Assembly (NCBI RefSeq): GCF_013394305.1
Contig: NZ_AP019810.1
Span: 1,681,501-1,745,500 of the forward strand
Origin: Enterococcus mundtii
GTDB taxonomy: Bacteria; Bacillota; Bacilli; Lactobacillales; Enterococcaceae
Length of the DNA: 64,000 nucleotides
Reading direction: 5' to 3'
Both the position numbers and the translations under genes were made by a program. Under the pieces are notes generated by a model. That model was given only the letters and a program-made list of their open reading frames with translations, was not told where the DNA came from and searched no databases. This document shows, one piece after another, positions 18,382 through 31,006 of the stretch. Numbering within the stretch: position 1 is the first letter of the stretch; each line of letters begins with the position of its first letter.

Positions 18382-18859
18382 AGTCATAATTATTTAAAAA
18401 AAAGAGTTTTTTTAAAGAGAAGAAATATGTCACAACATTCGATAGAAAGAGGTAGTTTCACAACATATCTATTTCGTATGTATTGTATAATTATGCTTTT
18501 ATAAAATATGACACCTCTTAGGTTAAAACTGTTTTTTATATAAAAAGTGATTTTTGCAGATTTTTATAATGATTCTTAATTTATAAAAATAGTAGGATAA
18601 AGAGAAGGTTAGCCACATACCTCATTTTTTTTTAATCTTCTTTAGGAGCTGACATAGCTACGTAAGATTTTTCAGACAATTCTGGCAACAGTGTGAAATA
18701 ATCTTGCAATATAAAACGGTTTTCTATATAATTATTAATAATTAATTACACACTCCTTAGAATGCTACTTATTTAATTTTTTTTGCTAAGTTGTTATTCA
18801 GTGTAGGATTATTTTTTTTATTAAAAACTTCCATCGAGGGAGCAGAGAGGGGTATTCGA
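18382..18859. other. Gene-free AT-rich opp leader region
   Basis: 478 bases with no supportable coding sequence. It holds the opp promoter and a long AT-rich untranslated leader. No recognised riboswitch or T-box motif was found. Confidence 0.6.
18704..18732 (+). promoter_or_regulatory. Predicted promoter of the opp operon
   Basis: TTGCAA (18704-18709), 17-base spacer, TATAAT (18727-18732). The transcript would carry about 120 untranslated bases before oppD. Confidence 0.65.
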
Positions 18860-19864
18860 TTGTCAGATAACCAATTATTAGATGTTCAGAACCTACACAC
18901 AGGCTTCCGTCTAAAAGATGAATACTACGATGCAGTAGACGACGTTTCTTTTACTTTAGATAAAAACGAGATCTTAGCCATCGTTGGTGAGTCTGGTTGC
19001 GGGAAAAGTACGTTAGCTACAACGATTATGGGATTATTAGATCCTAACAATACAAAGATCACAGGGGAGATCATGTACAATGATTTAAATTTAATTGAAT
19101 TAAATGAAACATTGTATAACAAGATCCGCGGAAATGATATTGGGATGATTTTTCAAGATCCATTATCTGCACTAAACCCTTTGATGAGAATTGAAGACCA
19201 AATCAAAGAAGGTTTGTCTTACCATACAAAAATGACTGCTGAGCAAAGACAAGCACGTGCATTAGAATTACTAGAACAAGTAGGGATTCCGAATCCTGCA
19301 CGAGTTGGACGTCAGTATCCTCATGAGTTGTCAGGTGGGATGAGACAGCGGGTGATCATCGCGATTGCGATTGCATGTAAGCCACCGATCATTATCGCGG
19401 ATGAACCAACGACTGCCTTGGACGTAACGATCCAAGCACAGATCCTTGACTTACTGAAAGATTTACAAGAAGAAACTAAAACTGGGATCATCTTGATCAC
19501 ACATGATTTAGGTGTCGTAGCTGAAATGGCGGATCGTGTTGCTGTGATGTATGGTGGACAATTTGTTGAAGTTGCAGGAGTCAAAGAGTTATTTGAAAAT
19601 CCAAAACACCCATATACACAATCATTGCTAAATTCGATTCCACAAGAAGGAAATCACGAGGCAGAGTTACATGTGATTGAAGGCGTAGTCCCTTCATTAA
19701 AAAATATGCCACGAACAGGTTGCCGATTTGCGCCACGGATTCCTTGGATCCCAGCAAGCGCTCACGAAGAAAATCCAGTCTTGCATGAAATCGCACCGAA
19801 TCATATGGTACGTTGCTCATGTTATAAACATTTCCACTTTAGAGACGAAAAAGGAGAGGTGTAG
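18860..19864 (+). CDS. oppD: Oligopeptide ABC transporter ATPase OppD
   Basis: 334-residue ATPase of a peptide importer. Walker A GESGCGKST is at residues 43-51, the signature is LSGGMRQRV, and Walker B is IIIADEPTTALDV. A C-terminal extension carries the GCRFAPRIPW peptide-transporter motif, though the usual metal-binding cysteine set looks reduced. The start is TTG 18860 after GAGAGGGG; further upstream sequence is not OppD-like. It abuts oppF without a gap. Order D-F-B-C-A matches lactococcal opp. Confidence 0.93.
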   Translation: MSDNQLLDVQNLHTGFRLKDEYYDAVDDVSFTLDKNEILAIVGESGCGKSTLATTIMGLLDPNNTKITGEIMYNDLNLIELNETLYNKIRGNDIGMIFQDPLSALNPLMRIEDQIKEGLSYHTKMTAEQRQARALELLEQVGIPNPARVGRQYPHELSGGMRQRVIIAIAIACKPPIIIADEPTTALDVTIQAQILDLLKDLQEETKTGIILITHDLGVVAEMADRVAVMYGGQFVEVAGVKELFENPKHPYTQSLLNSIPQEGNHEAELHVIEGVVPSLKNMPRTGCRFAPRIPWIPASAHEENPVLHEIAPNHMVRCSCYKHFHFRDEKGEV

Positions 19865-20809
19865 ATGTCAGAATTAATTACAATCAAAGATTTGAAAGTT
19901 CACTATCCTATTCGCAGTGGGTTTTTCAACCGAGTAACAGACCATGTCTATGCAGTAGACGGTGTCGATTTTATTATTGAAAAAGGAAAAACATACGGAC
20001 TAGTTGGAGAATCAGGTTCTGGGAAGTCCACAACCGGAAAAGCGGTTGTCGGCCTAGAAAAAGTGACTTCTGGCCAAATCATGTATGAAGGAAAAGACGT
20101 CACGAAAAGAAGTAACCGCAAAAAAATCGGCTACAACAAAGACGTCCAAATGATCTTTCAAGATTCAATGTCTAGTTTAAATCCTAAAAAACGAGTACTG
20201 GACATTATCGCTGAGCCGATCCGTAACTTTGAACGCTTGAGCGATCAGGAAGAAAAGAAAAAAGTCAAAGGCTTATTGGACATCGTTGGGATGCCAGAAG
20301 ATGCGTTATACAAATATCCTCATGAATTTTCTGGTGGACAAAGACAGCGTTTAGGGGTTGCCCGAGCAGTAGCAACGAATCCTAAATTGATTGTTGCTGA
20401 TGAACCTGTATCTGCCCTAGACTTATCTGTTCAGGCACAAGTATTGAACTTTATGAAACGCATCCAACAAGAATTTGGTTTGAGCTATTTATTCATCTCT
20501 CATGACTTGGGTGTCGTAAAACACATGTGTGACAACATCGCGATCATGTACAAAGGTCGATTTGTTGAAATCGGTACACGAGAAGATATCTATAATGATC
20601 CGCGCCACATCTACACAAAACGCTTACTATCTGCGATTCCACGAATTGATGTAGACAATCGGGAAATACAAAAACAAAACCGACGAAATGTTGAACGTGA
20701 GTATATCGAACATCAAAAAGATTACTACGATACAGCAGGGCGAGTGTATGATTTACGTACACTAACCACTACACACAAAGTAGCGTTGAAAGATGGAGGT
20801 GCTAGCTAA
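19865..20809 (+). CDS. oppF: Oligopeptide ABC transporter ATPase OppF
   Basis: 314-residue partner ATPase. Walker A GESGSGKST is at residues 48-56, the signature is FSGGQRQRLGVARA, and Walker B is LIVADEPVSALDLS. The ATG is the first codon after the oppD stop, and its last base is shared with the oppB ATG (TAATG), so D, F and B are coupled. The C-terminal region (about 255-314) is more variable, as is normal. Confidence 0.95.
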   Translation: MSELITIKDLKVHYPIRSGFFNRVTDHVYAVDGVDFIIEKGKTYGLVGESGSGKSTTGKAVVGLEKVTSGQIMYEGKDVTKRSNRKKIGYNKDVQMIFQDSMSSLNPKKRVLDIIAEPIRNFERLSDQEEKKKVKGLLDIVGMPEDALYKYPHEFSGGQRQRLGVARAVATNPKLIVADEPVSALDLSVQAQVLNFMKRIQQEFGLSYLFISHDLGVVKHMCDNIAIMYKGRFVEIGTREDIYNDPRHIYTKRLLSAIPRIDVDNREIQKQNRRNVEREYIEHQKDYYDTAGRVYDLRTLTTTHKVALKDGGAS

Positions 20810-21771
20810 TGTGGAAAACGATTCTACGAAGAGTTCTTTTGATGATCCCACAAGTGATCATTCTTAGTGTGTTGATCTTTATGCTAGCGCAAGCCATGCC
20901 TGGAGATCCGTTTACAGGATTGATCAACCCAAACCAAGATCCAGCTGTGATCGAGCAGATGCGTCAGGCAGCGGGCTTGAATGATCCTTGGTATGAACAA
21001 TATTTCCGTTGGGTCGGAAATGCCTTACAAGGTGATTTTGGACAAAGTTTCTTGTATAAGCGTTCGGTTTCCTCTTTGATTGGAGAACGAATCGTCAATA
21101 CTTTATATTTATCTATTTTAACTGTTATTATTACGTACTTGATTGCTGTACCACTAGGTATGTTAGCTGGTCGATACCAAAATTCGATTTTGGACAAAGC
21201 TGTTGTTATTTATAACTTCTTCAGTTTTGCTGTTCCATTATTCATTTTCGGATTGATCATGTTGTTTGTTTTTGGCTATCGTTTAGGTTGGTTCCCAACA
21301 AGTGGTTCTCAGACTTTAGGTTTCCAGGGAGGATTTTTCGCTCAATGGATGGATCGATTGCAATACATTTTATTACCATCGATCACACAGGCCTTTTTAG
21401 CCACAGCAGTAACGATCCAGTATTTACGAAGTGAAGTCATTGATTCGAAATCCTTAGACTTTGTACGTACAGCTCGTTCCAAAGGGGTGCCGACAAACAA
21501 AGTATTCAGTCGTCACATTTTCCGTAATGCAGCATTGCCGATGGCATCTCAAATGGGGTATGAAATCACTTCATTGATTGCTGGTTCTGTCGTTATCGAA
21601 AAAATCTTTGGTTATCCTGGTGTCGGAAAATTGTTTATTGACTCAATCGGTCAACGTGATTATACCGTAATCACAGCCTTAGTCTTGATTTTAGGAATCG
21701 CAACGCTCGTCGGAACACTGCTGTCAGATATTATCATGAGCATTGTTGATCCGCGTATACGAATCCAATAA
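20809..21771 (+). CDS. oppB: Oligopeptide ABC transporter permease OppB
   Basis: 320-residue permease with six predicted membrane helices. The first helix is followed by the ...MPGDPF motif typical of OppB/DppB. The EAA-type loop RTARSKGVPTNKVFSRHIFRN, split over about 220-240, contacts the ATPases. It starts on the last base of oppF; oppC follows 28 bases later. Confidence 0.95.
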   Translation: MWKTILRRVLLMIPQVIILSVLIFMLAQAMPGDPFTGLINPNQDPAVIEQMRQAAGLNDPWYEQYFRWVGNALQGDFGQSFLYKRSVSSLIGERIVNTLYLSILTVIITYLIAVPLGMLAGRYQNSILDKAVVIYNFFSFAVPLFIFGLIMLFVFGYRLGWFPTSGSQTLGFQGGFFAQWMDRLQYILLPSITQAFLATAVTIQYLRSEVIDSKSLDFVRTARSKGVPTNKVFSRHIFRNAALPMASQMGYEITSLIAGSVVIEKIFGYPGVGKLFIDSIGQRDYTVITALVLILGIATLVGTLLSDIIMSIVDPRIRIQ

Positions 21772-21799
21772 AAAAATCAAACAGAAGGGAGAATCGATC

Positions 21800-22714
21800 A
21801 TGAGTGATAAAAACAAAGAAGTTGCGCAAGAAAGTATCCCACCAATGGGTATACGAATGATTGCACGAGAATTCAAAAAAGATAAAGTAGCCATTTTTTC
21901 ACTGGCTTTGTTAGTTGTTTTACTATTAGTTATTTTTATCGGGGCGATCTTTATTGACCAAGATAAAGTAATGTTTGTTAGTATTTTTGATAAGTATGCT
22001 GAACCTGGCGCCATCTCTTCTCAAGGATCAAAATTCCTTTTAGGAGCAGATGAAGGTGGACGTGATGTCTTCGGTCAATTGATCATCGGAGCAAGAAACT
22101 CTGTGATGATCGGTTTTGCGATTACGATCATTACGTCGATCATCGGAGTAGGACTTGGAATTCTTTCAGGGTTTTATGGTGGGATCATTGATAACGTATT
22201 GATGCGTATTGTTGATTTTATTATGATTTTACCGATCATGTTGATCATTATCGTGTTTGTTTCGATCATTTCGCGCTATAACGTTTGGTCATTTATTTTT
22301 ATCATGAGTGCATTTTATTGGGTTGCTAAAGCCCGATTATTCAGAAGTAAGACGTTATCAGAAGCTAGACGTGATTATGTCAGTGCTTCAAAAACGATGG
22401 GAACAAGTGATTTCAAAATCATGTTCCGTGAAATCATGCCAAACCTTAGTTCATTGATCATCACCAACTTAACAATGAACTTTGCGGCAAATATTGGGAT
22501 CGAGACCACTTTGACTTTCTTAGGCTTTGGATTGCCAGCTAATGTACCTAGTTTAGGAACATTGATCGGTTATGCAAGTAATGGTGAAGTTTTAGTGAAT
22601 CGACAATGGATTTGGTTACCCGCGTCAATTCTAATTTTAGTGTTGATGTTGAGTATAAACTACGTTGGACAAGCATTTAAGCGCTCTGCAGATGCGCGAC
22701 AACGTTTAGGATAA
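21800..22714 (+). CDS. oppC: Oligopeptide ABC transporter permease OppC
   Basis: 304-residue second permease. The N-terminus has a cytoplasmic tail before the first helix near residue 35. LGADEGGRDVFGQLIIGAR is the OppC/DppC periplasmic-side motif, and SASKTMGTSDFKIMFREIMPN is the ATPase-docking loop. The ATG at 21800 follows GAAGGGAGA; an in-frame upstream start would overlap oppB and is not family-like. Confidence 0.94.
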   Translation: MSDKNKEVAQESIPPMGIRMIAREFKKDKVAIFSLALLVVLLLVIFIGAIFIDQDKVMFVSIFDKYAEPGAISSQGSKFLLGADEGGRDVFGQLIIGARNSVMIGFAITIITSIIGVGLGILSGFYGGIIDNVLMRIVDFIMILPIMLIIIVFVSIISRYNVWSFIFIMSAFYWVAKARLFRSKTLSEARRDYVSASKTMGTSDFKIMFREIMPNLSSLIITNLTMNFAANIGIETTLTFLGFGLPANVPSLGTLIGYASNGEVLVNRQWIWLPASILILVLMLSINYVGQAFKRSADARQRLG

Positions 22715-22739
22715 GAGAAGTGAAGGGGGAAAATAGGAT

Positions 22740-24521
22740 ATGAAGAAAACGATTTTTGGATTTGTCACACTGCTATCTGTGGGAGCATTAGCAGCGTGTG
22801 GAAATGGCGGCGGAACTAGCTCGTCAGGTAATAATTCAGCAGATAATGGGGATAAAAGTGAATTGACTTTCCCATTAGCTACAACGAATAATGATGAAGC
22901 AATCGAAGATGGACAGCTAGATGTGGCAGTAGCAACAGATAGTCAGTTCAAAGGATTATTCCAATGGGAATTTTACCAAGATGCCTTTGATGCAGCGTTT
23001 ATGGCGCCTTCACATGAACCATTGTTTACAAATGATGATAACTTCACGATTACAAACGATGGAGCAGCCTCATTAGAATTAGATGAAGATGCAAAAACAG
23101 CAACAATCACACTTAAAGACAACGTAAAATGGTCTGATGGTGTCGATGTCACAGCAGATGATGTTATTTTCCCTTATGAAATCATCGGAAACTCTGAATA
23201 CACTGGTATCCGTTACGATGATACATTCCGTAACATCGTTGGTATGGAAGAATATAACAGCGGTAGTGCAGATACGATTTCTGGAATTACAAAAGTAGAT
23301 GATAAAACTGTTAAAATCGAATATAAAGAAATGAACCCAAGCATGCTTCAAGCAGGTGGTGGAATTTGGACATATGCAGCACCAAAACACACACTTGAAG
23401 GAATTGCTATCAAAGACATGGAATCAAGTGATCAAGTTCGTAAGAACCCTGTGACATTTGGTCCTTACTATATGAGTAACATCGTTGCTGGTGAATCAGT
23501 AGAATTCTTACCAAATGAATACTACTGGAATGGTACACCACAATTGAAGAAAATCACAATGAAATCATTACCAACAGCAAGTGCAACAGAAGCATTAAAT
23601 TCAAAATTATATGACATGATTTTCCAAATGCCAACAGATACGTATGACACATACAAAGATATCGCTGGTTATACGAATCTAGGACGTCAGCAAACTTCAT
23701 ACACTTACTTAGGTTTCAAACTAGGTAAATGGGATGCTGAAAGTGGAAGTGTAGAATATGATCCAAACTCAAAAATGGCTGACAAAGCATTACGTCAAGC
23801 AATGGGCTATGCTTTAGACAATGCGGCAGTAGGTGAACGTTTCTATGCTGGTTTAAGAAGCAATGCAACTTCATTGATTCCACCAGTATTTGAAAGTTTC
23901 CACGATGCAGATCTAAAAGGCTTCACTCAAGATCTTGATAAAGCCAACAAATTATTGGATGATGCAGGATATAAAGATGTTGATGGCGATGGTATCCGTG
24001 AAGACAAAGATGGTAACAAGTTGACAATCAACTTTGCGTCAATGGCAGGTGGCGAAACAGCACAACCATTAGCAGATTACTACGTACAACAATGGAAAGA
24101 GATTGGTTTAGATGTTCAATATACAACAGGTCGTCTGATCGAATTCAACTCATTCTATGATCGTTTGGAAAATGATGATCCAGAAATCGATATCTACCAA
24201 GCAGCTTGGAGTACAGGAACAGATCCAAATCCAAGTGGACTATGGGGTGCAAATGCAGCGTTCAACTACACTCGTTTTGAGTCAGAAGAAAACACAAAAT
24301 TGATCAATGATATCAATTCAAGTGCAGCATTTGATGCAGATTACCAAAAAGAAGCTTACAAAAAATGGCAAGAATACGCATTTGAAGAAGCTTTTGCTAT
24401 TCCAACATTGTTCCGTAACGAAGTATTACCAGTAAACGACCGCGTCAAAGATTGGAACTGGGCATATGATGCTGTCAATCCATGGGCTGTTGTATCTGTA
24501 ACTTCCGATTCACGTTCATAA
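22740..24521 (+). CDS. oppA: Oligopeptide-binding lipoprotein OppA
   Basis: 593-residue extracellular lipoprotein that captures peptides for OppBCDF. The signal ends in the lipobox LAAC with the lipidated cysteine at residue 20, followed by a low-complexity Gly/Ser/Asn tether. The rest is a class C (SBP type 5) binding domain; LDDAGYKDVDGDGIREDKDG is a recognisable family stretch. It is the last gene of the operon. Besides nutrition, Opp importers bring in signalling peptides, which is relevant to the regulator at 29.7 kb. Confidence 0.95.
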   Translation: MKKTIFGFVTLLSVGALAACGNGGGTSSSGNNSADNGDKSELTFPLATTNNDEAIEDGQLDVAVATDSQFKGLFQWEFYQDAFDAAFMAPSHEPLFTNDDNFTITNDGAASLELDEDAKTATITLKDNVKWSDGVDVTADDVIFPYEIIGNSEYTGIRYDDTFRNIVGMEEYNSGSADTISGITKVDDKTVKIEYKEMNPSMLQAGGGIWTYAAPKHTLEGIAIKDMESSDQVRKNPVTFGPYYMSNIVAGESVEFLPNEYYWNGTPQLKKITMKSLPTASATEALNSKLYDMIFQMPTDTYDTYKDIAGYTNLGRQQTSYTYLGFKLGKWDAESGSVEYDPNSKMADKALRQAMGYALDNAAVGERFYAGLRSNATSLIPPVFESFHDADLKGFTQDLDKANKLLDDAGYKDVDGDGIREDKDGNKLTINFASMAGGETAQPLADYYVQQWKEIGLDVQYTTGRLIEFNSFYDRLENDDPEIDIYQAAWSTGTDPNPSGLWGANAAFNYTRFESEENTKLINDINSSAAFDADYQKEAYKKWQEYAFEEAFAIPTLFRNEVLPVNDRVKDWNWAYDAVNPWAVVSVTSDSRS

Positions 24522-24828: not shown

Positions 24829-25212
24829 ATGAAAAACAAAAAATTAGTTGTTAGTGTTATTGGAACTGTTGCTGCTATAGGAGTATTTGTCTCAATCGAT
24901 CAAGTAAGTGCGTCAGAAATGAATGAACCTTTGATTATATCAAGCTATGCAAATATATTTGATATGGATATTGTGCAAGAACAAGCAGTAATGATTCAGC
25001 CGAAAATCACAATGGATACATTTTATGGCGGAGTAACCGGTATTCCTGGATTTGGTACAGTATGGGGAGAATTTACGCCATCTAGTAGAAGAGTCACAGT
25101 TCAGGCGAAGGGAACAAAAACTGTTAATGTCACAGGAGGACCTAGAGTAGAAGTAAGAGCAGAAGCTCCACGTGCATTTACGGGAAATACCTCTGGATGG
25201 TGGTGGGCATAG
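24829..25212 (+). CDS. Lactococcin 972-like bacteriocin precursor
   Basis: 127-residue secreted peptide. A classical signal peptide (positive start, hydrophobic 7-21, cleavage near VSA-SE at about residue 28) precedes a mature region. Its C-terminal part (RRVTVQAKGT, GGPRVEVRAEAPRAFTG, ending GWWWA) matches the lactococcin 972 pattern of a V/A-K-A strand and an aromatic C-terminus. Identity is low, so the call rests mainly on the next two genes, which are the membrane protein and ABC ATPase always paired with this bacteriocin class. Lactococcin 972 binds lipid II and blocks septation; that this one does so is inference. Confidence 0.72.
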   Translation: MKNKKLVVSVIGTVAAIGVFVSIDQVSASEMNEPLIISSYANIFDMDIVQEQAVMIQPKITMDTFYGGVTGIPGFGTVWGEFTPSSRRVTVQAKGTKTVNVTGGPRVEVRAEAPRAFTGNTSGWWWA

Positions 25213-25384
25213 AGATTTAAGAACCTAAGACAAATTTTTTATACAGTATTACCCGAGCTATATAGAGATTACTGCTACGGTCAGGTTGTTACTAGAAGTC
25301 AACAATCTCTTCAGTGATATCTCAAATACAGTTCGGGTATTTAAATATTTGAAAACATATTTTAGGTCCTTTTTTTCTTTCATT

Positions 25385-27355
25385 ATGAAAAAAATCTATC
25401 GAGGGTTATTTATAGTTACAGTGTTAAGTTTCCTTTATGCCATTTCTTTTATCGGAAATGAAGGAATCAAGAGTGCTATCCCAAATGCTCATTCGGGCAT
25501 TGTGATTGAAGAAGCGAGTGGGACGATTGAGGAAATCAATCAAAAAATTTCTGCTTATGCAAAAAAACATCAAATTGCTATACATAAACTGGTTTTTAGA
25601 ATTGGCGCTTCTGGTGAGACGACAAAGGAAATTTATACCTTTGACAAGGTGGAACGTTCGGAATACTTTTTTCCACCTATAAAATCGGATGTTGCCACCT
25701 ATTTTTATGATTACACAGAGATGCAACATCAAGATGCGCTGGGTACTTATATTGTAACAGAAGCCCCTCCATCTGGAATGATTGCTGATTTTCATGATCA
25801 AGGAATCAAATTGGAGATTGAGGAGATAAAATGGTTCCAGTTATTGACAGCGGGTTTATTAATGAGTATTGGACAACTCTTCTTTATTCTATTTTTCTTT
25901 GTGATCTTAGCTTTACTGTTTTACAAAGCTTCTCTTCGTAAGAAAATTGGTGTGATTGAGATGTTAGGACATCGTTGGCTGATAGTGTCCTTCAAGGATA
26001 GTTTCATTGATAGTGCGATTTTTACTCTCTTGATGGTTGCTTTTTCTTGGTGGTTTCCACAATTACAGTTTCTTTATCGACCGATTTTTTTGGGGGGGCA
26101 TTTAATGATTTGGATTCTTCAATTATTTACGAGTGGGATTATTTTTTCGTTCGGTACGATTTCAGATAAAATAAAAGGAAGGAAACCTTACCGATTATTA
26201 TTTAGTTTGAACCTTTTATTAAAGATCATCATCTTCACGTTTGTTACGGTGCAAGCCAGTACATTATCAAATAAAGTAATGGAGACGCGTGAACTTGAAC
26301 AACAGCTCTCCCAATGGACAAGAATTCCTGACTATTATCAGTTAGCATTTAGTAGAGACACAAGTCTACTTGTAGACCCGGCAAAAAGTAAAGACGTGCG
26401 AAAGAAAGCACAAGCGTTGATCAATTCACGGTTACTTCCCTTGTTGGAAAAATCAGAACAGTCAGGTGGGATTTTTCTAAGAGACAATGAACTTGGTCAT
26501 AGTAGTCCGACACTAAATTATATTGAAAATGACGCTTTTTGGTTAAGTAATCATCATGCCGTACAAGAATTGGCTATCAAGGATGCTGAAGGTCAATCGA
26601 TACACTCATTAGATGATTCTTTTTTCTATCTGCTCATCCCTGAAAATAAGCGAATGTATACAGAAATGATCATTCAAGAAGCAGAGAATGAACTTGATTT
26701 TTATCAAAATTCTTTTGAGTACGAGACGAAAGCATATGAGGGGGAATTAAAAGTTCTCTATACGCAAGCAAACCAAGTCCTTTTTAACTATAACTTCCAA
26801 CCCTATGAAAAAAATTTTTCTTCCAATCCAATTATCGTTTCCATGTCATTGCCATTGATCCAACCAAATATTGAAATATGGATACAGGATATTTCAAATG
26901 GGACTTACTTGTTTCGAGACCCTCAACTTGTCCAAGCATTTATTAAAGAAAATCATATGGAACATGATTTTTATGGATTGATTGCTGTAAAAGAAAGCAT
27001 CAATCAATCTCTTATGGGTGTGAAACGTGAATATTATACAACCCTTAGTATTTTGTTCTTGATCCTTATTGGTTTTGTTTTTATTCAAGTTTATTTGAGT
27101 TTACTGTATGTGGAAATGAATAAGAAAAAACTGTTTCTCAAATATATTGCTGGTTGGGCTCTGCTACAGAGGCATCACAGATATTATAAAATAATATTAA
27201 CCATTTCTACCGTTGTTGCGTTGATCTTACTACTCATCAATCATGCTTGGTGGCAGATTTTAATTCTATTACTATTATTTGAATTATGTATACTTTTATT
27301 CACTACGTATTTATCAGAAAAAAGAAAACGTCTGGAGGTGATCAAATATGATTGA
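25385..27355 (+). CDS. Bacteriocin-associated integral membrane protein (DUF1430-type)
   Basis: About 656 residues. A hydrophobic N-terminal anchor is followed by an extracytoplasmic domain, membrane helices near 160-300, a second large outer domain, and further helices at the C-terminus, an FtsX/MacB-like plan. Such proteins accompany lactococcin 972-type peptides and work with the adjacent ATPase in export or producer immunity. The start is uncertain: ATG 25385 gives MKKIYRGLFIVTVLS but has a poor ribosome-binding site. A TTG at 25286 is the other in-frame choice. It overlaps the ATPase gene by 8 bases. Confidence 0.8.
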   Translation: MKKIYRGLFIVTVLSFLYAISFIGNEGIKSAIPNAHSGIVIEEASGTIEEINQKISAYAKKHQIAIHKLVFRIGASGETTKEIYTFDKVERSEYFFPPIKSDVATYFYDYTEMQHQDALGTYIVTEAPPSGMIADFHDQGIKLEIEEIKWFQLLTAGLLMSIGQLFFILFFFVILALLFYKASLRKKIGVIEMLGHRWLIVSFKDSFIDSAIFTLLMVAFSWWFPQLQFLYRPIFLGGHLMIWILQLFTSGIIFSFGTISDKIKGRKPYRLLFSLNLLLKIIIFTFVTVQASTLSNKVMETRELEQQLSQWTRIPDYYQLAFSRDTSLLVDPAKSKDVRKKAQALINSRLLPLLEKSEQSGGIFLRDNELGHSSPTLNYIENDAFWLSNHHAVQELAIKDAEGQSIHSLDDSFFYLLIPENKRMYTEMIIQEAENELDFYQNSFEYETKAYEGELKVLYTQANQVLFNYNFQPYEKNFSSNPIIVSMSLPLIQPNIEIWIQDISNGTYLFRDPQLVQAFIKENHMEHDFYGLIAVKESINQSLMGVKREYYTTLSILFLILIGFVFIQVYLSLLYVEMNKKKLFLKYIAGWALLQRHHRYYKIILTISTVVALILLLINHAWWQILILLLLFELCILLFTTYLSEKRKRLEVIKYD

Positions 27356-27974
27356 AGCCAAAGAAATCACTAAAAAGTACAAAGGAAAAGTGATTTTTGA
27401 AAACGTATCTTTACATGTAGAGACTGGTTCAATAACTGTGATTACTGGAAGCAGTGGTGTAGGGAAAACGACGTTACTGAATTGCTTAGGACAACTGGAG
27501 CCCATAGATTCTGGTGAAATATGGATAGACAATCAATTCCTTCACCGTAAAAGTAAAAAACGTTTCTTTCGTGAGTATGCAGGATTTTTATTTCAGAACT
27601 TTGCATTGATCGATAATGAAACGGTCAAGCAAAATTTACAGTTAGTAGTAAAAAAAGAGGAAAAAATGATTGCTGCGCTCCGCAAGTTCCAAATGGAAGA
27701 TTCATTGCACCAAAAAGTATTTCGTTTAAGCGGTGGTGAGCAACAACGAGTAGCTTTAGCTCGCTTGTTTTTGCAAATCCCTAAAATCGTTTTTGCAGAT
27801 GAGCCCACTGCCTCTTTGGATAAAGGAAATCGGCAACTTGTGATCGAAGCATTGAAAGAATTGAATGAGCAAGGAGTGACGATCGTCTTAGTCACCCATG
27901 ATTTAGATTTGGCAGAACAACTAGGTGGGCAAGTTGATATGAATGAACTGATAAATAGAAGGAAGTTAGTGTAG
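27348..27974 (+). CDS. Lactococcin 972-group ABC transporter ATPase
   Basis: 208-residue stand-alone ATPase of the MacB/LolD type. Walker A GSSGVGKTT is at residues 34-42, the signature is LSGGEQQRVALARLF, and Walker B is IVFADEPTASLD, with VTHD as the switch. The short length and pairing with the membrane protein fit the lactococcin 972 export/immunity group. AGGTGATC precedes the ATG inside the end of the previous gene, so the two are co-translated. Confidence 0.88.
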   Translation: MIEAKEITKKYKGKVIFENVSLHVETGSITVITGSSGVGKTTLLNCLGQLEPIDSGEIWIDNQFLHRKSKKRFFREYAGFLFQNFALIDNETVKQNLQLVVKKEEKMIAALRKFQMEDSLHQKVFRLSGGEQQRVALARLFLQIPKIVFADEPTASLDKGNRQLVIEALKELNEQGVTIVLVTHDLDLAEQLGGQVDMNELINRRKLV

Positions 27975-28256
27975 GTATAAGCATATAATGAATTGCGATA
28001 CAGCCAATAAAAATCAAGGGAAAATATTAACGATCGTCTTTTTACACTTGTTTAGTGAGGAAGGATTTCCTGAGTTTCGCTCGATTTCCATCACATATTG
28101 TAAAGCTAACTTAGAGAACTTCTTCTCGGAGATTAACCAGCGAATGACTTAATGGCATAAGCTGAATTGTAAAAAAATAGGATTCAAAATTAGGGAAAGA
28201 TAGTCCAATTAAGTATCGATTAACGGATAAATTTTACAAGTATTCATAATAAAATA
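27975..28256. other. Gene-poor gap after the bacteriocin operon
   Basis: About 280 bases. A 54-codon open frame (27988-28152, plus strand) has no ribosome-binding site and no recognisable motif; it may be a gene remnant. Nothing else is supportable. Confidence 0.4.
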
Positions 28257-28296
28257 CGACGATCTCACTCTGATAGAAAAAGAGATGAGATCGTCG
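28257..28296. terminator. Convergent terminator in the accessory island
   Basis: CGACGATCTCA pairs perfectly with TGAGATCGTCG, with a CTCT/AGAG inner extension. On the minus strand ATTTTATT follows. It separates the plus-strand bacteriocin operon from the minus-strand secreted-protein operon. Confidence 0.65.
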
Positions 28297-28415
28297 CTTA
28301 AGTTTCTATTGATCTTTTGAGAGGGAGTGGTTTAGTATTGTACTGTTTAAAAAATTTTGTGTCATAGTTTATCTGTTCTCTAAGGCTGTGCTACTTTAGC
28401 TAAGATAAATAGTAG

Positions 28416-28586
28416 CTAAAAATGATTCTTTTCTTTTATTGTTTTTATTGCTTCAATCAACTCAGTCTCGATTTTACTTTTTGAGCGTAGCAAGCCAATT
28501 ATTTCATTTAACTGTGCAACGATTTTTATTATACCGACAAAAACAACAACAAAAGTAAAACTAGATATTGAAAAAATTGTAATCAC
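28416..28586 (-). CDS. Small single-pass membrane protein coupled to the secreted protein
   Basis: 56 residues, starting at a GTG that overlaps the upstream stop as GTGA, the standard sign of translational coupling. Residues 3-24 (IFSISSFTFVVVFVGII and on) form one membrane helix. The rest is a charged amphipathic tail (LRSKSKIETELIEAIKTIKEKNHF in parts). No homologue is recognised. By position and build it resembles the small immunity or holding proteins encoded behind secreted antimicrobial proteins; this is inference. Confidence 0.7.
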   Translation of the reverse strand: MITIFSISSFTFVVVFVGIIKIVAQLNEIIGLLRSKSKIETELIEAIKTIKEKNHF

Positions 28587-29257
28587 CAGCTTGCATTATA
28601 TTTTGACGACCATAATTCGTCAGTTAACGTCACTCGAACGGTTCCGGCATTTCCGTGACTAGACACAAGACCACGGGCGCTCGCCGTTTTTCTAACTAAT
28701 TCACCTGCAATTAAGTTACAAATAGCAACAATCACTGCACCAGCAACTGTAATTCCACATGTAACAGCAAGAGCATCTAATATGGCACTATACAATACAC
28801 TACCTCCAGCTCCCATGACAAGTCTATCATAGAAATTATAGACAGACGTTTTACCAGTGCTAGTATTATAGTACATATTCCAGCCACCATTTTGCAGTTT
28901 GCCACCTACGCCTGCTACTGCACGAGAACTATAACTAGCACCATCAAACTCTTTCAGCAAATCATTGATGTTGTTCTTTACATCTTTGACTGTCATATTC
29001 ATTACTTTCTTTTCAAAAGCAGTAGCAACGCTATTTTGAGTTGATGGTGTATTAGGTAGAGAACTAGAATATCTTAACTGTGCATCGTTCATTAATTCAG
29101 CAATTGTTTTGTCTTCAAATTTTTTTACTTGGACCACTTTTTGATTCTCACTATCTGATGCGTAAACAACAGAACTTAGTGAAGGAACTAATGGTGTTGC
29201 TAATGTTACTATTGCTATAGAGGTAGTTAAGAGCACTTGGAATTTGTTTATTTTCAT
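28583..29257 (-). CDS. Secreted protein with hydrophobic C-terminal segment, unknown family
   Basis: 224 residues. A signal peptide runs to about VVYA-SD (residue ~33). The mature part has a polar N-terminal half (EDKTIAELMNDAQLRYSS, then NNINDLLKEFDGASYSS). Next is a Gly/aromatic stretch (GGWNMYYNTSTGKTSVYNFYD). A 40-residue hydrophobic glycine/alanine-rich segment with two cysteines follows (GAGGSVLYSAILDALAVTC and beyond, about 140-180), then a polar tail ending KYNASW. I do not recognise it. Its hydrophobic hairpin and the coupled 56-residue membrane protein suggest a secreted membrane-active effector with cognate protection. GGAAGG gives a clear start. Confidence 0.75.
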   Translation of the reverse strand: MKINKFQVLLTTSIAIVTLATPLVPSLSSVVYASDSENQKVVQVKKFEDKTIAELMNDAQLRYSSSLPNTPSTQNSVATAFEKKVMNMTVKDVKNNINDLLKEFDGASYSSRAVAGVGGKLQNGGWNMYYNTSTGKTSVYNFYDRLVMGAGGSVLYSAILDALAVTCGITVAGAVIVAICNLIAGELVRKTASARGLVSSHGNAGTVRVTLTDELWSSKYNASW

Positions 29258-29328
29258 ACTATTCGACCTTCCATTATATGTAATTTTTTGATATTACGGA
29301 TAGATTTTGAAAAAATTTTGTTCAACTG

Positions 29329-29379
29329 CTACAAATTGACAACTTCCCAACCAAATAATATCATTAAAGATGAAATCAT
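29329..29379 (-). CDS. Candidate short hydrophobic peptide pheromone
   Basis: A 16-codon gene, MISSLMILFGWEVVNL, with a perfect AGGAGG four bases before the ATG. It lies 71 bases upstream of the secreted-protein gene on the same strand and is divergent from an Rgg-family regulator. Rgg regulators are commonly controlled by short hydrophobic peptides encoded next to and divergent from them; those peptides are exported, trimmed and re-imported by Opp. The hydrophobic C-terminal half (LMILFGWEVVNL) is the likely signal. Very short, so not supported by length alone; the site, position and composition together are the evidence. Confidence 0.6.
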   Translation of the reverse strand: MISSLMILFGWEVVNL

Positions 29380-29424
29380 TTTTCCTCCTATTTATAGTAG
29401 ATTTAAAGTTTTTATCTTCCGATT

Positions 29425-29444
29425 ATTGTAGGGAAACTTTACAA
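29425..29444 (-). promoter_or_regulatory. Promoter and inverted repeat before the peptide gene
   Basis: On the minus strand TACAAT (29430-29425) is a fair -10 box about 46 bases from the peptide ATG, with no good -35. TTGTA-N9-TACAA spans the region, so a dimeric regulator could bind over the promoter. A poor -35 is typical of Rgg-activated promoters. Confidence 0.4.
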
Positions 29445-29689
29445 ACCTTTGTTCTTTTTATTAATGTTTTCTCAAGTAATGTTCCTTATTTGGATTAGGT
29501 CAATTTCTAGTTTATCAAGATATGTGATTACCAAATAAATATGATTATCAGTGTTATAGATTAGATGCTTACTGCGTTATTATTTAGTGTATTACTAAAT
29601 GTGATAATGTATCTTAGTTGTATAATAAGGTTATTTGATAGTTTGTACCAAAGTTAGTCAAAAATAAGTAGAAAATTTGGTGATTTTAT

Positions 29690-30544
29690 ATGGAACATGG
29701 GGAATTGATTAAAAAATTAAGAACCGATAGAAAAATAACGCGAAGAGATTTGAGCGAAGGGGTACATTCGATAAGCGCATTACAGCGGTTTGAAAATGAT
29801 ACCGCTAGAATTGACATAGATACCATTTGGCAATACTTGGAAAGAATGAATATCCAAATAGATGACTACTATTTGGAGTATTATAACTATCAATTAAGTA
29901 AAAAAGAGCACTTACGAAAAAAATTTAGGAGTGCAATTATTTCTGAGTATCATGCAAAAGAGTATCTAGACAACTTACAAGAAGAATATAAAAAAAGTAA
30001 CGACATTTTTTTTCTGTATCTAATTGTTCAAATAAAAGCAGTTGCTGAAAAATTACCAAATTATAAACTTGGTAAGATAGATGAAAATGAATCAAAAAAA
30101 ATTTTGGATTATTTGAACAGGATAGAGGAGTGGGGATATTTCGAATTAGCAATGTATACTAATTGTTTAGGACTCTTTAAAAAGGAATACCGATTATTTC
30201 AATATAAGGATGTGCTCAATCAGTTTAGGAAATTTAAAGGTATACCTAAATATCAACATGCATTAATAAAATTTATTATAAATTCAATCATTTTAGAATT
30301 TTCTGATAAAAATTACGATAGAATTTTGGATTTGTTAGGAATTTTGTATGATGAAACAAAGGACTCAGATTACTTAAAAGGAAGAATTTATTGGAAATTT
30401 TTTTTCCGATTGTATCAGTCTGTCGTTGGGGATTTGGAATTTGATGGCTCGATAGCTATTGAGATGCTAAGGCTGCTTGGATATGAAGAAGAGGCAGTAA
30501 ACTTTTTGGATATTGAAAGAACAATCTTGGACGATCATACATAA
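29690..30544 (+). CDS. Rgg/GadR/MutR-family transcriptional regulator
   Basis: 284 residues. The N-terminal helix-turn-helix (about 1-60) reads ELIKKLRTDRKITRRDLSEG, then SISALQRFENDTARIDIDTIW, the Rgg signature of XRE-type domain followed by R/E-x-DTARI. The remainder is an all-helical TPR-like peptide-binding domain with many aromatic residues. The gene is AT-rich compared with the core genes. It is divergent from the short peptide and secreted-protein genes, its probable targets. TATAAT at 29621 is a likely -10 box. Confidence 0.88.
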   Translation: MEHGELIKKLRTDRKITRRDLSEGVHSISALQRFENDTARIDIDTIWQYLERMNIQIDDYYLEYYNYQLSKKEHLRKKFRSAIISEYHAKEYLDNLQEEYKKSNDIFFLYLIVQIKAVAEKLPNYKLGKIDENESKKILDYLNRIEEWGYFELAMYTNCLGLFKKEYRLFQYKDVLNQFRKFKGIPKYQHALIKFIINSIILEFSDKNYDRILDLLGILYDETKDSDYLKGRIYWKFFFRLYQSVVGDLEFDGSIAIEMLRLLGYEEEAVNFLDIERTILDDHT

Positions 30545-30557
30545 ATTAGTTTGTCGA

Positions 30558-30700
30558 GTTAACAAGATGCATTAATCAGATCAGATATACTTTCACACCT
30601 ATAAAATCTGATGTTGTTCCTTATTTTTTAAGATTACATAGAAATGAAAAAGAACAAGATTTGTTCAGTGCTTATATTGTAATGAAAGTACTCCTATTAA
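30558..30700 (+). pseudogene. Remnant of a second bacteriocin-type membrane protein gene
   Basis: These ~140 bases align with 25645-25790 inside the intact DUF1430-type gene: shared blocks include CACCTATAAAATC, GATGTTG, GATTACA, and CTTATATTGTAA. Translated in shifting frames it gives TPIKSDV, DYIEM and AYIV against PPIKSDV, DYTEM and TYIV. At least two frameshifts and no flanking gene remain, so it is a relic. Confidence 0.75.
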
Positions 30701-30791
30701 AATATTTGGACATTGTTTAAATATACGTGTGCTAAATTATACTGACTGAATAATCGCTGATTCCAACTACAATTAATATAACTTTAAACAG

Positions 30792-30823
30792 GCATTTTCT
30801 GTTTTTTGGAAAGTGCTTTTTTT
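30792..30823 (+). terminator. Terminator at the right edge of the island
   Basis: GCATTTTC pairs with GAAAGTGC (one G-U) and is followed by seven T. It now serves no intact gene other than possibly the regulator; it may be left from the decayed operon. Confidence 0.6.
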
Positions 30824-30937
30824 GTTCTTTGATAAGTAATTAGCTGGATTTAGGAACATTACAAGGTTTAGTATACTTTTATGAAAAAGAATCTTCAACA
30901 AGGTTTATAAAGCTTTTCATACCTTTTGTCTCAACCA

Positions 30938-30966: not shown

Positions 30967-31006
30967 AAGGAAGTATTGAAAAAATAGCCATAAAGGAATG
31001 TGGGAA

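Follow-up and report, generated by a model that had tools for sequence, protein, structure and literature searches.

The Rgg regulator and its divergent peptide

We analysed a window of 64,000 nt from the Enterococcus mundtii contig NZ_AP019810.1 (genome of 3.30 Mb in four contigs); the nearest matches to 12 kb of a second contig are E. mundtii plasmids (95.3% over 82%). In this window the gene of an Rgg-family regulator is divergent from the gene of a very short peptide, and the latter is followed by genes of a secreted protein and a small membrane protein; we treat the four as a candidate peptide-controlled bacteriocin locus. By direct reading, the parts stand where a preliminary description of this DNA had placed them (Table 1), and all four open reading frames (ORFs) are open. 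The peptide gene has a full Shine-Dalgarno (SD) box, AGGAGG (29389-29384), 4 nt ahead of its ATG, and is separated from rgg by 310 nt. The membrane protein gene starts with a GTG that shares bases with the stop codon of the secreted protein gene (GTGA, 28583-28586).

Table 1. Features of the candidate locus, in window coordinates
Feature	Position	Strand	Basis
Rgg-family transcriptional regulator, 284 aa, helix-turn-helix (HTH) and Rgg C-terminal (peptide-binding) domain	29690..30544	+	Pfam/NCBIfam models
Peptide gene MISSLMILFGWEVVNL, 16 residues, candidate signal	29329..29379	-	direct reading; (G/P)WEV core recurs near Rgg relatives
SD box AGGAGG of the peptide gene	29384..29389	-	direct reading
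Stretch resembling the left-end tip of an IS110-family element	29379..29463, weakly to 29480	-	79% identity to transposase-carrying copies
Secreted bacteriocin-like precursor, 224 aa	28583..29257	-	family alignments and family searches
Small membrane protein, 56 aa, candidate immunity protein	28416..28586	-	direct reading; open homologue in sister genome G008

The regulator scores above the curated thresholds for Pfam Rgg_C (67.1 bits, cut-off 27), Pfam HTH_3 (29.6, cut-off 23) and NCBIfam TIGR01716 (51.4 bits, cut-off 36.9). It thus has both the HTH and the Rgg C-terminal domain of the Rgg/GadR/MutR regulators, and its initial assignment to Rgg is borne out. Its solved relatives, found as PDB sequence matches, include RopB (5dl2 and 6dql); the Rgg tree was built without RopB. 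The clade of the window Rgg has a support of 92/92 (100/99 together with locus L067), several branches being long and the placing unsure. The closest intact relative is the Rgg of L067/L096 (46%).

Upstream regions of Rgg relatives were scanned for short SD-led frames. Near Rgg genes of two other genera we observed divergent SD-led frames MYP[ND]SPWEVEVF and 23-residue frames with FPWEVVE, so that in both genera the Trp-Glu-Val (WEV) core is present in frames of 12-23 aa that diverge from an Rgg relative. The Trp-Glu core, initially considered distinctive of the window peptide, is thus shared with PWEVE/PWEVV peptides; on the other hand, its recurrence beside Rgg genes agrees with conservation of the peptide frame in related loci.

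The pattern SD...ATG...TGGGARGTNG, derived from the core already seen upstream of Rgg relatives, was then searched in 106 genomes of the same bacterial family and occurred at 38 places, against five for the reversed pattern. Loci were lacking for eight of the 38 (G013:C45 was read later and encodes a 332-aa protein, L152). Of the 30 places that were read, in-frame peptides no longer than 34 aa are encoded at 11, and at 10 of them, the window included, the locus contains an Rgg gene. Seven of the 10 were known before the pattern was made, one is the window, and those of G038 and G047 are new; the gain of the search therefore consists of these two cases and of the near absence of short frames away from Rgg (one, in L125). 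The second place in G047 is the L134 peptide again, and the letters of the second place in G007 are identical to places read; G073:C7, G088, G095, G100 and G104 are left out of the count. In eight of the 10 loci the peptide lies approximately 102-120 nt from Rgg, as compared to 310 nt in the window and about 1.1 kb in G038, where a gene that by eye looks like an acetyltransferase stands in between. The Rgg loci L088 and L090 have an upstream GWEV string without an obvious start codon. We do not regard the L125 frame, MLFLNWEVAHENL in G009, as a signal, since it overlaps the 5' end of a gene resembling an oxidoreductase (by eye) and no Rgg lies close to it.

In the clade of the window Rgg, a short frame containing Trp lies at a distance of 102-119 nt in four of the five relatives, namely MCNILNTYGLWYPTQPTNNY (L099), MIDLLILLVTWLSIEPLR (L100), MISFFDLWWPVFPRK (L101) and MDSYLAIWFLINPRD (L102), some of them with a weak SD box or a GTG start. 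More generally, a Trp frame at 95-125 nt was found in 15 of 36 Rgg upstream regions, against 3.83 expected from shuffles, although some of the 15 (L079, L090, L113) look fortuitous and related loci enter the count repeatedly. The 36 regions were required to have the Rgg N-terminus, at least 300 nt of upstream sequence and distinct last 150 nt; L095, L097, L098 and L106 lie outside them as well, and the remaining loci are not independent. Judged from these comparisons, it is improbable that the window peptide frame arose by chance.

An inverted repeat, GGAC-GGAAAAATA-GTCC, was observed upstream of Rgg in L082 (with one base different), L088, L090 and L093. Lying between the regulator gene and the WEV peptide (or string), it is a candidate operator. 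It was not found in the window by eye.

The precursor family and its membrane partner

The secreted protein has a signal peptide at approximately residues 1-33, the hydrophobic segment of which ends VVYA/SDS (cleavage judged by eye), followed by a pro-region, an FDGA...NGGWN motif, a Gly/Ala-rich hydrophobic segment and a C-terminal tail. A six-frame search with this single protein gave matches in seven of the 106 genomes, and a six-row profile that included it in 14. A 12-row profile matched 25 of 396 genomes of the order, several of them only over the signal and pro-region. The members have in common the signal peptide, the pro-region, a (Y/F)(D/E)GA-like motif and a GGxN motif, whereas the C-terminus is variable, mostly Gly/Ala-rich and hydrophobic. 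The protein had at first been an unrecognised effector; it belongs to an unnamed precursor family, with a paralogue in the same genome (G000:C1:1663160-1663765). Neither the protein nor a three-row alignment matched plasmids, phages or viral contigs. In genome contigs the single protein had no match, and the three-row alignment found three loci of two species. Comparison of the protein and its relatives with PHROGs, PDB sequences and Pfam gave nothing useful.

Membrane ORFs of 51-97 aa follow on the same strand in 10 of the 12 intact family members, which together form alignment A2 (no broken copies). As a control we took every window ORF of at least 180 aa, likely spurious antisense frames included and those ending within 600 nt of the window end on the strand read excluded: such a follower was present in one of 43, which is the secreted protein itself, and in none of the 42 others. 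In three degraded toxin loci (L015, L018, L053) the small membrane gene is open beside scraps of the toxin gene. A precursor gene paired with an adjoining small membrane gene, the latter kept open in degraded loci, is an arrangement typical of bacteriocins with a dedicated immunity protein. The small membrane protein of the window has a single hydrophobic stretch. The idea of an antimicrobial-like secreted protein with a coupled protective partner thus gains from the comparison of family members, and the partner may be called a candidate immunity protein.

The strongest support for coupling of this pair to the regulator comes from a parallel locus, L099 in G001, which has the same order of Rgg, divergent Trp peptide, secreted protein (192 aa) and membrane protein (54 aa). 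The secreted protein of L099 resembles the window family only in its first 80 residues or so and has another C-terminus, so that the same layout here goes with a different secreted protein.

The locus of the same-genome paralogue (L049 4488-5272, G000:C1 approximately 1662987-1663771) contains an overlapping 51-aa membrane ORF, and a gene resembling a response regulator (by eye) is nearby. Beside the toxin-family locus in G013 there are repeats (L012 3877-4478) reading in frame as VLELCCFECFQN; by eye, this is probably a CRISPR (clustered regularly interspaced short palindromic repeat) array.

The candidate locus is flanked on one side by a gene at 30998, which we take to be rnc, and on the other by genes of a secreted protein of 127 aa, a membrane protein of the DUF1430/bacteriocin-associated kind (scoring under the TIGR01654 cut-off) and an ATP-binding cassette (ABC) ATPase at 24829-27974, perhaps a second bacteriocin locus. 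The gene at 24829 and neighbours in L101 and L102 (the one in L102 broken) may be lactococcin-972-like; for the window gene and L101 this label was confirmed by no Pfam or NCBIfam model. Just upstream, at 18791-24521, lies an operon named by eye as an oligopeptide permease. Such permeases import Rgg peptides in streptococci.

Two sister genomes retain traces of the locus. G008 shares the neighbours, but window positions 28848-30903 are missing, and with them Rgg, the peptide and about 137 residues from the start of the toxin. What is left of the toxin gene is interrupted by stops; the small gene is still open and agrees with the window at 163 of 171 bases. In G012, 25437-30409 are gone and the end of Rgg remains. 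The secreted protein gene of the 24829 region is absent in G008 and mostly kept in G012. Since each genome has a scar of the module and the breakpoints differ, the module would have been present at this site before G008 and G012 parted and would have been partly lost twice.

The IS110-like stretch and the state of the control

The region 29370-29480 matched two plasmids, and in all the element is present in 26 plasmid records. Besides that of V. teuberi, five of these records were examined, and each has an annotated IS110-family transposase adjoining the element. Two plasmid copies are about 80% alike over 431 bp, and as the likeness runs into the transposase gene, we interpret the stretch as an IS110-family left end. 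It was found at 28 places in 20 of the 106 genomes, the window included. A complete or partial IS110-family transposase lies in the fetched flanks of 15 of the 28 copies; the other 13, some of them at contig ends, have none there, and these include the window and one 100% copy. The window copy comprises only the outer 85-110 nt, with no transposase nearby.

The tip of the element abuts the SD box of the peptide gene, as other copies abut theirs. At 22 of the 28 places a frame of 15 aa or more starts within 18 nt of the tip, and at 17 the frame has at least 37 aa. The left end is thus observed directly at SD-like sequences of many different genes (L160 4001-4318, L168-L171, L172-L199), as if the ribosome-binding site were the target of the element. 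A literature search gave no description of such targeting by this element that we recognised.

Other interpretations of this leader were considered. A shared Rgg operator was judged unlikely, as 15 of the 28 copies have the transposase in their fetched flanks. The 13 copies without it may be stand-alone leaders of the same origin. No riboswitch or other Rfam family matched at the gathering level, permissive scans gave chance-level matches only, and the fold of the leader is no better than that of shuffles. The stretch would account for part of the 310 nt gap between peptide and Rgg, which in the Rgg relatives that have such peptides is mostly about 100-120 nt. In the L160 copy the transposase is also approximately 310-320 nt away from the start codon of the neighbour; we consider this a coincidence because there is no similarity beyond 29480.

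Taken together, these observations make it fairly probable that the locus is a bacteriocin and immunity pair controlled by Rgg and its peptide, with the control in this particular genome in doubt given the IS110-like stretch. Rgg would be the cytoplasmic receptor and transcription factor, and the peptide, or its C-terminal part around GWEVVNL, its cognate signal. The predicted steps begin with the peptide, which would leave the cell and re-enter it at high density, where its Trp-containing core would bind the Rgg C-terminal domain; the complex would activate the peptide gene together with those downstream of it. The operon would then yield a Sec-secreted bacteriocin precursor, cut by signal peptidase and further by an extracellular protease, and killing by the product would spare the producer, shielded by the small coupled membrane protein. 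As the IS110-like left end lies between the receptor and the peptide gene, it may have changed or broken this control of the secreted protein gene, so that the original regulation would now be weakened or rewired.

Several observations weigh against this reading. The IS110-like stretch occupies the place where a promoter of the peptide gene dependent on Rgg would be expected. No convincing peptide was found upstream of the closest intact Rgg relative (L067/L096) or of the frameshifted Rgg of L065/L094. The Rgg clades associated with WEV peptides are only about 30% identical to the window Rgg, and nearer relatives have Trp without WEV; given this distance, the shared core may be either old or convergent. 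On the effector side, the secreted protein matched no Pfam or NCBIfam family and no bacteriocin model, its structure model is unusably poor (mean predicted local distance difference test score, pLDDT, 38.8), and two family members (L017, L044) are not followed by a small gene. Codon differences between the small genes of the window and G008 (seven non-synonymous, one synonymous) do not reveal purifying selection for its function. Finally, no Rgg was seen in the flanks of the other fetched toxin-family loci.

The last point, together with the IS110-like end directly ahead of the peptide SD box, would also fit a self-standing bacteriocin and immunity pair with a putative promoter of its own, of which Rgg and the peptide are not, or no longer, regulators. 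The Rgg/WEV pairs examined in other genera adjoin other kinds of gene, and there is a weak promoter-like site before the toxin gene (29342-29315, 9/12), such sites being in modest excess (13 versus 7.2 expected, standard deviation 3.0). However, the order of genes is repeated in L099, and a sequence scan found no terminator-like site between the peptide and toxin genes; we consider independence from Rgg doubtful. A TATAAT 15 nt before the toxin ATG was rejected as a promoter, since the expected transcript start would fall behind the toxin ribosome site, and it did not appear in the promoter scan. The losses in G008 and G012, each with its scar, and the IS110-like stretch in the promoter region could alternatively mean that the whole locus is decaying, receptor and peptide being leftovers of a partly lost module from which nothing is expressed. 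Against this, four open frames and a full SD box of the peptide gene remain in the window, and we regard decay as unlikely.

It is less likely still that the secreted protein is a surface or host-directed factor, with the small membrane protein aiding its export or anchoring. The lack of a known activity and of a matching bacteriocin model would be consistent with such a role, but the layout is the same as in the locus of the bacteriocin EntV (see below), and an open small gene in degraded toxin loci suits protection better than export.

Beyond the control of the bacteriocin pair favoured here, a broader generalisation is possible, though tentative. There may exist an enterococcal class of Rgg signals with a Trp(-Glu-Val) core, 12-23 residues long, which are neither precursors of short hydrophobic peptides (SHP) nor leaderless peptides of 8-10 residues. 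One branch of the receptors would control bacteriocins with a common signal and pro-region but a swapped killing domain and immunity protein, and here an IS110-family element landing at SD boxes would have rewired the signal gene. If so, enterococci would have a searchable peptide code, a short frame with a Trp core divergent from Rgg at about 100-120 nt, and one branch of it would be tied to a sparsely described, rapidly changing family of secreted bacteriocin-like proteins and their candidate immunity genes.

Comparison with known systems

Receptor-peptide pairs are known in Enterococcaceae: the accessible part of PMC10518010 describes one tested in E. malodoratus and names E. durans and E. 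casseliflavus. The leaderless-peptide systems of the RopB clan resemble the window locus in having an Rgg-type receptor and a divergent, SD-led, very small peptide gene, and their neighbours include antimicrobial clusters and ABC transporters (PMC10518010). The window peptide, with 16 residues, falls outside their range of 8-10, although longer exceptions are named in the same part of that paper. The window also differs from those systems in its Trp-Glu-Val core and in having a secreted bacteriocin-like precursor as the effector; some of the WEV or Trp peptides may already be present in the figures or supplements of PMC10518010.

The Rgg/SHP systems of streptococci, as described in the accessible part of PMC13361665, share with the window an Rgg gene and a divergent gene of a hydrophobic peptide. 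Peptides of SHP groups I and II have a conserved N-terminal Asp or Glu (PMC13361665). The window peptide has one Glu, inside GWEVVNL, and no clear acidic residue would start a putative mature form. SHP precursors have a basic N-terminus, which the window peptide lacks.

The secreted protein is organised similarly to EntV (enterocin O16, EF1097) of E. faecalis (PMC9562342, PMC5454873), with a signal peptide, a pro-region and a bacteriocin C-terminus; EntV is under Fsr control and is processed by gelatinase (accessible part of PMC9562342). In G016 the EntV gene, which scores 217 bits against EntV_fam, is hit in its first part by the 12-row profile built from the window family (profile positions 2-79, E 2.3e-4); over the C-terminal part there is no match. 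Conversely, the proteins of L014, L047 and L099 weakly match the first part of the EntV model (E 0.031, 0.015 and 0.095, respectively). These matches to the start of EntV could stem from signal peptides alone. Membership of the window protein in the EntV family (NCBIfam NF058576, >130 bits) was rejected, there being no EntV_fam hit up to E = 1. Downstream of the EntV gene in G016, and overlapping it, lies a membrane ORF of 65 aa (L056 1959-2156), which is a candidate EntV immunity gene.

The pneumococcal rtg locus is reportedly also regulated by Rgg and encodes peptides of interbacterial competition (PMC7018657). It has double-glycine peptides and a peptidase-containing transporter, whereas the window encodes a Sec-secreted precursor. 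A text search of the literature for four peptide strings gave nothing related, and among papers on Rgg together with Enterococcus and bacteriocins, judged mostly from titles, no description of this locus was recognised. We consider it a new variant of the known Rgg/SHP and leaderless-peptide systems.

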